From Agarivorans litoreus (GTDB taxonomy: Bacteria; Pseudomonadota; Gammaproteobacteria; Enterobacterales; Celerinatantimonadaceae): a stretch of DNA of 64,000 nt. Where the stretch lies: assembly GCF_019649015.1 (NCBI RefSeq), contig NZ_BLPI01000001.1, forward strand, positions 248,001 through 312,000. The letters are read 5' to 3'. Under the pieces are notes generated by a model. The model searched no databases, was not told the DNA's origin, and saw only the letters and a program-made list of their open reading frames with translations. Below are positions 38,893 through 42,803 of the stretch, one piece after another. The translations under genes were made by a program, and so were the position numbers. Within the stretch, counting starts at the first letter, position 1; every line of letters begins with the position of its first letter.

Positions 38893-39045
38893 ATGAAGAC
38901 TGATCTTCAATATGCTATCGAACGAAACGTAGCGACCAATCGCCGCGCTGTAGAGAACTACAACTTACTACGCCAGCAAGAGCAAAACCTTGCAACCGAA
39001 GCACTAGAGTTAGCATTAGACCGCGAAAGCTTAGGCAATAACTAA
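38893..39045 (+). CDS. small hypothetical protein (50 aa)
   Basis: A 50-residue acidic, helical protein starting MKTDLQYAIERNVATNRRAVENYNLLRQQEQNLATEALELALDRESLGNN. The ATG at 38893 follows AGGGAATCCC, which gives a Shine-Dalgarno-like AGGGA. A longer frame from 38827 has an unlikely leader. The alternating charge and lack of hydrophobic stretches suggest a soluble single helix. It converges with the tubulin-like gene and the two share the terminator at 39064. Function unknown. Confidence 0.6.
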   Translation: MKTDLQYAIERNVATNRRAVENYNLLRQQEQNLATEALELALDRESLGNN

Positions 39046-39061: not shown

Positions 39062-39091
39062 ATAAAAAAGGGGCTAAAGCCCCTTTTTTAG
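39062..39091. terminator. bidirectional Rho-independent terminator
   Basis: Stem AAAAAAGGGGCT / AGCCCCTTTTTT with loop AA. Used by the 50-aa gene (plus) and by the tubulin-like gene ending at 39095 (minus). Confidence 0.88.
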
Positions 39092-39094
39092 TGT

Positions 39095-41182
39095 TTATTT
39101 GGATTCGGCCACAGGCTCTATCGAGTGTAATCCTGGCGATAAATGAATAACTCCGCCGGCATCATTATCCAAAGATAGAATGTTGGTTTTGCTAATGCGG
39201 TGTCGATAAATTTCACGCAAATATTTAATCGCATTTTCCACATTCTTAAAGTCCAAACGAATATCGTTAATCGATACAAACTTATCAGCTTCACCAATTA
39301 ACTCTCGATATTTCTTTTCATACATTGGCTTAATAGCATACCAATTGGTATCTAAGATCTTGGCTGGGTTTTCAAACTCCCATAAGAACTCTTGTAACTC
39401 TTCTGGCTTAAACTCATCTTGGGTAATAAAGCGCAGTATTGCTTGGTCGATATCATCGTTATAACGGTACTCTTCTTTCGCAAAACAACGCTTAATATAA
39501 GCCACGACTAAGGTTAAGAAGTCGTCACTTAGGCAAGGGCTTTTTGCAACTAATGTTGTTAGAGAAAGGTTTGCAGAAGCACCGATAACAAGCGCATAAC
39601 GTTTAAGCGTAGTGTTAGGGAAAAGTTTGTTGATATGAACTTTAAGCTTATTTAAATCCATAAACGAGAGCTTGTAGTCTTTTGGCAAAGAAATTATCGA
39701 GATTACCGACGAACAATGCTTGAAAAAGTGCAATTCATTTAGCTCTTCTGCATTATATTGACTGTCTTGGTACCTCTTCAGTGACTGTTTATAACGCTGC
39801 GACTCGATAGGTAAAATGCTAATACCTTCAATAGCTTGAGTATCACGATTAAAGTGAGGCAAATCAATGGAACGGAAAAATAGCTCATCAATGTCTACAT
39901 CATCATTTACCGATTTATTTACCACGCTCTCTGCATAGGCAACCGCAACAGGCCCCGCCATACTCATGAACAAATCATTAGCATCTAGGCGTACGGTTTC
40001 CGAGATATCAATACCTGCACGGCGGAAATAATTTTCGTCGTAATCTGTGGTTACTGCCTGAGCTGTTAAGATATTAAATATTTGTTGGGAGATATACTGG
40101 TTAGCATATTTCTCCATAGTATTTACATCTATATCTTTGCCATTATCGCTCTCTTCTTGCTCTACATAACGCATGATGTCATTAGAAATTAACATCATAG
40201 AATTCCAAGGGCGGATCCGCTTCATTACATCTTCTGGTGTATCGTTACTTTCACGCTCTACGTTATACGAGAAATCCCACTCTTCAGAAAGGTACTTACA
40301 TAACAAACGACCGGCGTTGATATGTAGTGCTTCAGACACCTCGATACTGCTACCCGAGATATTAGGCAGGATACAAATGCCCGAAGTGAAGATGGGTTCA
40401 AAAACAAAAGAATCGCGTTTATCGGGTTGATTAGATGGCGACACTTGATAATCAAAGGTTTTACTTAAGTAAGAAAACTGCTGCGCCAGACCAAACTCAG
40501 AAGCCATGCCAGAACCAGTACCACCACCGGCACTAAAAATGTAGAAGTAGAGGCGCGATTGGTTAGCTTTAATGCCACAGGAGTCAACCAAGTAAGAGTG
40601 AATGTGGCGCCAATCTTCATTTCTAAAGCTAGCAGTTTCTTTATTTAAAATAATCTTAGCTAAGTACTGGCCTAAGATTGGCGCGTTACCTGCGCCTCCG
40701 GCGTGTACTTCGGATAAGTCCATCAACTGGAGCTTCTTATATTCATCTAGAAACTTTTGGCGACCGGCTTGTGAGGAGTACTTAATACGTCCTGCAATAT
40801 CTTTGTCTAAATCACCCACCAATACCACGGGTTCAATCAAAAATACTGGGTTATCACCATTTCCACTATCTAGTGGCAAATGATTTTTAATCCAACGCAT
40901 GGGTTTAAATTCACGTTCCTGAGCGAGTTGGTCTTGATACTCTAACTCGTTAAGGTAGTGATTACGGGAGTTGTATACCAAAGTGGCTACATCAAGTGCA
41001 ATATTTGACCCGCAACGGCCAAGACCTATTAAGCAAACAGATGGGAAGCTTTGTTCTAATAAGTCTTTTTCTTCTGATAGATTAGGAAAGATATTCTGTC
41101 TAACTTTATCGAGGTTACCTAGGATTTTCTCTAGGCTACTTTCGGTGTAATACAAATGTTCTATAGGAAGAGAATCCTTCAT
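39095..41182 (-). CDS. stand-alone tubulin/FtsZ-superfamily protein
   Basis: This 695-residue protein has the nucleotide-binding hallmarks of the tubulin/FtsZ superfamily. The first loop is CLIGLGRCGSNIALDVATL (GLGRCGSN, residues 53-60). The block GDLDKD is at 123-128 and HAGGAGNAP at 160-168. The tubulin signature SAGGGTGSGMASEFG is at 217-231, with GGGTGSG. It is clearly not the cell-division FtsZ: it is about 300 residues longer, its N-terminus is divergent, and the remaining motifs are not those of FtsZ. Beyond about residue 330 there is a large region I cannot assign (YRYNDDIDQAILRFITQDEFKPEELQEFLWEFENP). It may belong to the FtsZ-like families described from genome surveys, but I cannot check this. 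It has no operon partner. Start ATG with AAGGATG before it. GTP binding and polymer formation are inferences. Confidence 0.78.
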   Translation of the reverse strand: MKDSLPIEHLYYTESSLEKILGNLDKVRQNIFPNLSEEKDLLEQSFPSVCLIGLGRCGSNIALDVATLVYNSRNHYLNELEYQDQLAQEREFKPMRWIKNHLPLDSGNGDNPVFLIEPVVLVGDLDKDIAGRIKYSSQAGRQKFLDEYKKLQLMDLSEVHAGGAGNAPILGQYLAKIILNKETASFRNEDWRHIHSYLVDSCGIKANQSRLYFYIFSAGGGTGSGMASEFGLAQQFSYLSKTFDYQVSPSNQPDKRDSFVFEPIFTSGICILPNISGSSIEVSEALHINAGRLLCKYLSEEWDFSYNVERESNDTPEDVMKRIRPWNSMMLISNDIMRYVEQEESDNGKDIDVNTMEKYANQYISQQIFNILTAQAVTTDYDENYFRRAGIDISETVRLDANDLFMSMAGPVAVAYAESVVNKSVNDDVDIDELFFRSIDLPHFNRDTQAIEGISILPIESQRYKQSLKRYQDSQYNAEELNELHFFKHCSSVISIISLPKDYKLSFMDLNKLKVHINKLFPNTTLKRYALVIGASANLSLTTLVAKSPCLSDDFLTLVVAYIKRCFAKEEYRYNDDIDQAILRFITQDEFKPEELQEFLWEFENPAKILDTNWYAIKPMYEKKYRELIGEADKFVSINDIRLDFKNVENAIKYLREIYRHRISKTNILSLDNDAGGVIHLSPGLHSIEPVAESK

Positions 41183-41271: not shown

Positions 41272-41295
41272 GCTATCACTAGTTAATGTGATAGC
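41272..41295. promoter_or_regulatory. inverted repeat upstream of the tubulin-like gene
   Basis: Perfect 8-bp arms GCTATCAC / GTGATAGC around TAGTTAAT, 90 bp upstream of the tubulin-like ATG and 80 bp left of the IS4 element. It could be an operator for an unknown regulator. Confidence 0.45.
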
Positions 41296-41464
41296 AGCAA
41301 GTCGCGTAAAATTCTTTGCAGGGTAAACACTAATGAGCTAGTAAGAATCGAGCAATAAAAAAGGCGCCCTGAGGCTAATGCCGATCAGTTAAGACAGAAC
41401 CATTGACGATCTTTCTAGGTATAGCAAAATCCGATGTTATTAATGGCATCGGATTTTTTCGTTT

Positions 41465-42775
41465 ATGGACGTCTCACAAGCACTCAACATCATCAATGAC
41501 TGGAAGCCCAATCAAATTGAAACACTGGCTGATTTGTTACCCCTTGAGCTCATTAATGATGCCTATGCTTTGTCCGATACGGTTACGCTGAGAAAACGCA
41601 AGCTGTCGCTTGAGTCACTGGTCTGGTTGCTTGTTGGAATGGCGCTTTATAATGACAAATCGATAGCCAATATCGTGAATCAGCTCGATATTGTTGACCG
41701 TGAAGGTAAGCCTTTCGTTGCGCCAAGTGCACTCACGCAACGGCGTAAACAGCTAGGCGAACAAGCGATACACGATGTCTTTCAACTCATGTCAAAGCGC
41801 TGGTGCCAACAAGCCAACTTCGCTCACTGGAATGGTTTAACGCTACTCGGTGTTGATGGTGTCACTTGGCGTACTGATGATTCTAAAGAGAACAGCGATG
41901 CATTTTCTCGACCTAAAGGCACACAATACCCACAAGTGCGCATGGTGTGTCAGATGGAGTTAAGCACACATCTCATCACCGCCAGTGCTTTCGACGACTA
42001 CAACGTCAACGAAATGGTGTTAGCCGAAAAGCTGATTAAAGATACGCCAGACCATAGCCTAACGATGTTCGACCGTGGCTTTTATTCGATGGGGTTACTA
42101 CATGCTTGGCAGAGTGCAGGTACAGAGCGCCACTGGCTTCTGCCATTAAAGAAAAACACTCAATATACCGTGCAGAGAAGCTTTGGGCGTAACGATAAAC
42201 TTGTCACCCTTACTAGTAATCCTAGAGCGCGTAAGTTATGGCCAGAACTATCCGAAACGATGACAGCTCGTCTCGTGACCCGCAAAATCAATGGCAAGAC
42301 ATTTGAGGTACTCACTTCTATGATTGACCCGATGCGCTTTCCCGCAGCAGATATTGGTTCATTGTATGGACACCGTTGGGAAATCGAACTGGGATACCGA
42401 GAGCAAAAACAGTTTATGTTGGGAAGGCGTTTGACACTCAGAAGCCGTAAACCGGAGCTGGTGCGCCAAGAGTTATGGGGCATTTTGCTGAGCTATAATT
42501 TGATACGGTATCAAATGGTTGAAATGTGCTTTGTGTTGAAAGGGAGCTACTTGCCTTACCAGCTGAGTTTCAATGGCGCGTTAGCGCATGTCATGAGGTT
42601 ATTGGTAGGACTGCCTTATTCCAGCCCAGGGGCAATTCCTCGGCAGCTCAAGCATTTTTATGGGATGGCAGAAAGCCTCATTCTTCCGCCAAGGCGAGAA
42701 CGAACCTTTCCAAGGTGCGTTAAGCCCAGACCGCAGCGATACGCTAGAAACAAAAATGCCGTTCACCTTAAGTGA
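41465..42775 (+). CDS. IS4 family transposase
   Basis: A 436-residue DDE transposase close to E. coli IS4 transposase along its length. DDE motifs are [10 protein letters not shown] (Asp), [10 protein letters not shown] (Asp) and [14 protein letters not shown] (Glu, with the YREK-type signature of IS4). The frame is intact. Other family blocks are [61 protein letters not shown] and [26 protein letters not shown]. The stop lies within the right inverted repeat. Confidence 0.95.
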
Positions 42776-42783
42776 ACGGCATT
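42755..42783 (-). terminator. hairpin at the IS4 right end, acts against leftward transcription
   Basis: Perfect 12-bp inverted repeat AATGCCGTTCAC / GTGAACGGCATT around a 5-base loop. Read on the minus strand it is followed by TTTTTG, giving a Rho-independent-like terminator that would act on suc transcription entering the element. It may replace the disrupted suc terminator. Confidence 0.55.
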
Positions 42784-42803
42784 GGCGCCCTGAGGCGCCT
42801 TAT
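42784..42803 (-). terminator. suc operon terminator hairpin, split by IS4
   Basis: GGCGCC-CTGA-GGCGCC is followed on plus by TTATTG. Before the IS insertion it would have been preceded on the plus strand by AAAAAA (now at 41357-41362), that is a T6 tract on the minus strand. The hairpin remains beside sucD, but its T-tract is now 1.4 kb away, across the IS4 element. Confidence 0.7.

Follow-up and report, generated by a model that had tools for sequence, protein, structure and literature searches.

The window analysed here, a stretch of 64,000 nucleotides from an Agarivorans litoreus contig (NZ_BLPI01000001.1, positions 248,001 to 312,000), contains an intact gene of 695 codons at 39095-41182 on the minus strand; the coordinates given in a preliminary description of the sequence agree exactly with the list of open reading frames, and the coding sequence rests on that frame, which starts with ATG, and on orthologues. 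We call the gene ftsZl2, after the family to which its product appears to belong; the same genome also encodes a normal FtsZ of 383 amino acids. The terminator hairpin reported 3′ of ftsZl2 is present at 39063-39090, assigned to neither strand and common to ftsZl2 and a convergent small frame. That frame spans 50 codons (38893-39045, plus strand) and begins MKTDLQYAIERN; a Pfam scan of it returned no match. Two signals proposed for the 5′ side fared less well in an upstream alignment of the window with four same-genus relatives (L001, L082, L083 and L085). The perfect dyad is there in the window (41272-41295) but, by our reading of the alignment, absent from all four relatives, and the TATAAT box put forward as the gene's own found no backing there, that spelling occurring, on the same reading, in none of them; the region shows no excess of promoter-like sites over shuffled sequence (4 found, 7.0 on average after shuffling).

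Further upstream lies an IS4-family insertion sequence (41376-42783, plus strand; PF13006 and PF01609) that is not part of the ftsZl2 system. Flanked by a 13-bp target duplication (41363-41375 and 42784-42796), it sits between sucD and ftsZl2, occupying 41363-42796 with the duplication, and the terminator between these two genes was apparently the site of insertion. The upstream stretches of all four aligned same-genus relatives lack the insertion, and in L001 a sucD-like gene lies directly upstream of ftsZl2 with no such element between them.

Scanning of the GTDB species genomes turned up 562 stretches that encode relatives; the best 80 of these are 66-96% identical and include representatives of Agarivorans, Aliagarivorans, Marinomonas, Paraglaciecola, Arsukibacterium, Alkalimonas, Rheinheimera, Alishewanella, Pseudomonas, Marinobacter, Colwellia, Cellvibrio, Neiella, Thalassomonas and others. 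Full-length orthologues occur as a rule once per genome. Relatives share at least 63% identity over nearly the full length, about 63-76% outside the protein's own family, and the most divergent full-length members found (L165 and L166) retain 61-62% over the core. Genome sampling, which stayed within the protein's own phylum and whose counts include the own genome or the genome at the centre of each sample, found the gene in 14 of 60 relatives (with matches in 7/7 genomes of its own genus), in 28/295 genomes of the order (two of the 28 being broken copies), in 2/369 of the class (own genome included; single-sequence search) and in 9/398 of the phylum (profile search), these last all within the same class. 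Two other orders gave 1/3 and 12/244, and the family of one further genome (G999) 2/6. Presence is much denser in two genera that we take as kin of Pseudomonas and Marinomonas because the tree places rows from them within the respective clades: 130 of 199 species in the former (genus of G767; one copy is partial and another broken into two pieces), and 29 of 48 in the latter (genus of G778). Within its own genus the gene is broken in a sister species (G003, loci L094-L098), where the copy lacks codons 1-53 together with the stretch upstream, and about 975 bp of dissimilar DNA interrupts the frame near codon 306, followed by gaps; one sampled genome (G519) retains remnants only, and another, of the same family as A. 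litoreus (G007), gave no ftsZl2 match. Present in part of the sampled species and broken in one sister species, ftsZl2 is an accessory gene.

Clustering of flanking genes covered 80 loci, in 77 of which ftsZl2 fell in the main cluster. No partner gene conserved beyond a genus or a few related genera was found across the 80, in keeping with the stand-alone organisation noted from the window; the most widespread neighbour clusters reach 22/80 loci and are limited to a few related genera, while a common flanking set unites 15/23 Pseudomonas loci and, likewise, 11/12 Marinomonas loci. A search for small-frame partners gave clusters in at least three genera that were limited to the same related genera, and nothing wider. 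Among the neighbours, whose names in the relatives are our reading of their sequences, is an RNA pseudouridine synthase-like gene at most three genes from ftsZl2 in 22/80 loci (L016, L026, L038 and L080, for example). Its carriers are Rheinheimera, Arsukibacterium, Colwellia, Thalassomonas and two other gammaproteobacteria, and it lies on the ftsZl2 strand in 17 loci and on the other strand in 5, which looks like a shared place rather than an operon. We recognised no division gene among the shared neighbours, and no particular process is indicated by the neighbours or by any other finding of the analysis.

Selection on ftsZl2 is strongly purifying in the one pair that could be read (window copy against L083: dN 0.011, dS 1.06, dN/dS about 0.01), synonymous sites in the other pairs being at or near saturation. 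At least one move of the gene between lineages is also probable, as indicated by the tree, in which the copy of Paraglaciecola marina (L015:7995-10022) falls in with those of Marinomonas and well away from three others of its own genus, and by rejection of a tree of 28 rows that holds the four Paraglaciecola copies together (p-AU 2.6e-120, for a group chosen after the first tree had been seen). Searches for mobile relatives found no ftsZl2 match in a phage collection (50,697 records) or a plasmid collection (72,556 records) and no relative in pattern scans of IMG/VR, one of which returned 35 pattern-matching stretches, none related; PADLOC gave no match for the window protein.

What places the product in the tubulin/FtsZ superfamily, as the preliminary description had proposed, is a set of three nucleotide-binding loops that lie where they had first been located. 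A T1-like loop, GLGRCGSN (residues 53-60; 41003-41026, minus strand), aligns with FtsZ GVGGGGGN, and a T3-like loop, HAGGAGNAP (residues 160-168; 40679-40705, minus strand), with FtsZ GLGAGANP, each in 4/4 MAFFT modes; together with the T4 signature SAGGGTGSG (residues 217-225; 40508-40534, minus strand), which is invariant and anchors the hhalign comparison, they stand in order and in register with FtsZ in all four modes. All three are invariant or nearly so in the aligned relatives, the most distant pair having GFGRCGSN, and the relatives aligned carry GGGTG(S/T)G with T1 upstream. Both Pfam tubulin models, PF00091 (Tubulin) and PF13809 (Tubulin_2), are matched weakly, at E ≤ 1, by 64/64 members scanned, as they were by 32/32 in an earlier alignment (A1); the best E-values in the family are 8.8e-5 and 2e-4, respectively, and the window copy (0.066 and 0.0025) falls under the Pfam curated cut-offs, a comparison made for that copy only among the 64. 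None of ten other window proteins, used as a control, matches either model.

Profile comparison adds to this chiefly through T4. In hhalign against 17 proteobacterial FtsZ sequences, the whole protein, residues 40-300 and residues 200-345 each exceed 200/200 column shuffles, with an aligned core that consists of the T4 motif alone; reversed profiles do as well as forward profiles whenever T4 is part of the comparison, probably because GGGTG reads nearly identically backwards. Set against 990 background proteins, the family profile failed to place proteobacterial FtsZ ahead of unrelated proteins, and the reverse search fared no better (best ranks 35 and 53). Solved structures gave no match to the single sequence, and to the profile nothing but ribosomal L23, with E no better than 0.45. 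A match to DUF6562 (E 0.00076; 30/64 members) is short and falls under the cut-off for that model, and we set it aside. Taken with the published HHpred result for PFL_1302, the type of FtsZl2 (E 0.0033; PMC2875224), membership of the superfamily is well supported.

Elements beyond T1, T3 and T4 are unproven here. By eye, MMLISND (residues 329-335, with SND at 333-335) resembles FtsZ T6; RLDANDLFMSMAG (residues 398-410) resembles T7 and includes the candidate motif DAND (residues 400-403; 39974-39985, minus strand), comparable to FtsZ DFAD; and residues 492-547 resemble the FtsZ C-terminal domain. Both SND and DAND are invariant and stand where T6 and T7 are expected. Automated comparison was mixed to negative: T2 was placed elsewhere in 4/4 MAFFT modes, and T6 and T7 elsewhere or nowhere by our reading; one looser hhalign run of the C halves paired D400 with FtsZ D210 (pairwise E 0.036, probability 1.4) and, at the same probability, matched the FtsZ C-terminal domain to residues near 492-542. 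Shuffled profiles reached the observed score in 137/200 cases for H7-T7-H8, in 105/200 for the C-terminal domain and in 4/200 for the C half, whose best segment (residues 337-352 of the window protein) is not a T6/T7 pairing. Global alignment places FtsZ 264 at 498 and 296 at 534, in agreement with the C-terminal domain recognised by eye (3/60 shuffles scoring at or above), and does not reproduce the T6/T7 pairing. Two AlphaFold runs both gave poor models (pLDDT 39.7 and 43.2), best in each over a beta-alpha-beta-beta unit at about residues 492-547, and Foldseek with the second found no match at E 0.001.

The description of more than half of the protein as devoid of a recognisable domain is correct at Pfam cut-offs, but 283 invariant positions, counted across the window protein and 61 relatives with the two most distant (L165 and L166) left out, span residues 46-671. 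They extend into a highly conserved C-terminal module (residues 551-672; 39167-39532, minus strand) to which no Pfam match was assigned and which carries the near-invariant stretch DTNW.AIKPMYE.KYRE. A segment hydrophobic enough for a membrane helix was not found in the protein, the best 19-residue hydropathy mean being 1.29 where the usual threshold is about 1.6.

Our best guess is a cytosolic GTPase that forms filaments apart from the division ring. On balance we favour, with some confidence, the joint reading that FtsZl2 is a soluble GTPase of the tubulin/FtsZ superfamily, additional to the cell's own FtsZ, whose filaments would most likely have an accessory role in positioning or scaffolding, and not one in cytokinesis. 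What the analysis establishes is the gene itself and its relatives, T1, T3 and T4, purifying selection, the stand-alone organisation, the lack of a segment hydrophobic enough for a membrane helix, and absence or decay in some species. GTP would be held by the T1-T4 loops, and subunits would, by analogy with the superfamily, join head to tail as filaments, with an acidic residue in T7 of the adjoining subunit (D400 and D403 being the candidates) completing the GTPase site; the inserts and the C-terminal module (551-672) may serve lateral contacts or a partner encoded elsewhere.

The main rival, which we regard as a serious if rather unlikely alternative, is a tubulin relative that forms no polymer and acts, with GTP or GDP bound, as a scaffold or regulator, the inserts and C-terminal module having taken the place of the filament interface. 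It would account for the failure of automated comparison to recover T6, T7 and the C-terminal domain firmly, for a T1-T3 stretch that is long compared with that of FtsZ and for the lack of cytomotive partner genes nearby; but the invariant SND and DAND occupy the expected T6 and T7 places, one weak hhalign pairing recovers T7, and the alignment of Makarova and Koonin keeps the T6 and T7 elements (PMC2875224). An origin as a TubZ- or PhuZ-like segregation filament, as a virus-derived filament or as a defence gene, now chromosomal, is improbable: in its favour are the patchy distribution and a horizontal transfer that probably took place at least once, yet neither the phage and plasmid records nor the IMG/VR pattern scans hold a relative, PADLOC gave nothing for the window protein, the flanking genes are shared within genera (15/23 Pseudomonas and 11/12 Marinomonas loci) and no partner gene is conserved. 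We give marginally less credence still to an accessory role in division through co-assembly with FtsZ, an idea to which the common superfamily and the presence of both proteins in one genome lend themselves, but which sits poorly with a gene found in 2/369 genomes of the class sample (its own included), broken in a sister species and accompanied by no division gene that we could recognise among its shared neighbours. That the protein is no tubulin relative at all, its glycine-rich motifs being chance occurrences in a different nucleotide-binding fold, is very hard to credit, for although the profile matches are all sub-threshold and both AlphaFold models are poor, three loops stand in the right order, both tubulin models are found in 64/64 members and an independent HHpred result has been published for PFL_1302 (PMC2875224).

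A further and more tentative suggestion, which we hold at somewhat less than even odds, is that about two thirds of the species in the genus grouping with Pseudomonas (130/199) possess a second, accessory tubulin-type cytoskeleton, given an architecture unlike that of FtsZ, TubZ or tubulin by its C-terminal module, and that it organises a structure other than the division machinery. Here is a tubulin relative, about 63-76% identical along almost all of its length outside its own family and under strong selection, for which our open-access searches turned up no assigned function after 2010. Because ftsZl2 is present in Pseudomonas, a genus with good genetics, the role of a second tubulin-like protein in Gram-negative cells is directly testable.

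Comparison with described systems places the window protein within a published family. FtsZl2 was described by Makarova and Koonin in 2010, with PFL_1302 of Pseudomonas fluorescens Pf-5 as its type; according to that paper (PMC2875224) it is proteobacterial, has inserts between T1 and T4, retains T1, T4, T6, T7 and H7, and ends in a C-terminal region of about 300 residues, of mixed alpha/beta structure, with no coiled coil and no known relatives. The same paper reports it free of gene associations, gives no function and expects it to form filaments, and the legend to Figure 1 names Marinomonas and Chromobacterium beside P. fluorescens, by their position probably as FtsZl2 members (PMC2875224). 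A search of the open-access literature, with subscription papers mostly outside its reach, found no experimental or functional study of the family. The string 'ftszl2' in PMC7327170 denotes the FtsZ mutation L272E and not this family, and a 2023 survey put aside 'FtsZ-like' sequences bearing Tubulin_2 (PMC9871819). The proposal mentioned in the preliminary description, that divergent FtsZ-like families remodel membranes, rests in the 2010 paper on the genes around FtsZl1 and not on those around FtsZl2 (PMC2875224).

FtsZl1, with its Tubulin_2 domain (PF13809), resembles the window protein in being a large FtsZ-like protein, and its model gives a weak match over residues 162-341 (E 0.0069), but at 16.1 bits the match lies below the curated cut-off of 27. 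FtsZl1 also sits in operons alongside vWA, GTPase and OmpA genes and contains a coiled coil (PMC2875224), whereas ftsZl2 lacks widely shared partner genes; no vWA-operon arrangement appeared, there being no widely shared neighbour in the loci clustered and a vWA scan having covered ten window proteins. With FtsZ itself the protein shares the T1, T3 and T4 loops in order and, by eye, candidate T6 and T7 elements; it differs in length (695 amino acids against 383 for the cell's own FtsZ), in its patchy distribution beside a separate FtsZ in the genome and in the lack of a significant profile match for its family in ranking tests. Against FtsZl2, compared by published description, we found no difference: the window protein is likewise the product of a stand-alone proteobacterial gene, has GGGTGSG and extra sequence between T1 and T4, ends in a long C-terminal region without a known domain, coexists with FtsZ in its own genome and has relatives in Pseudomonas, a genus of the published family, and in Marinomonas, probably another. 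The window protein thus appears to belong to FtsZl2, an assignment made by description and not by comparison with the PFL_1302 sequence. The candidate uncharacterised system of the preliminary description, with its supposedly new C-terminal module, is not new as a kind, its taxonomic range, GGGTGSG motif, long C-terminal region and lack of associated neighbours all fitting FtsZl2; the Agarivorans copy is a new member of a known family.
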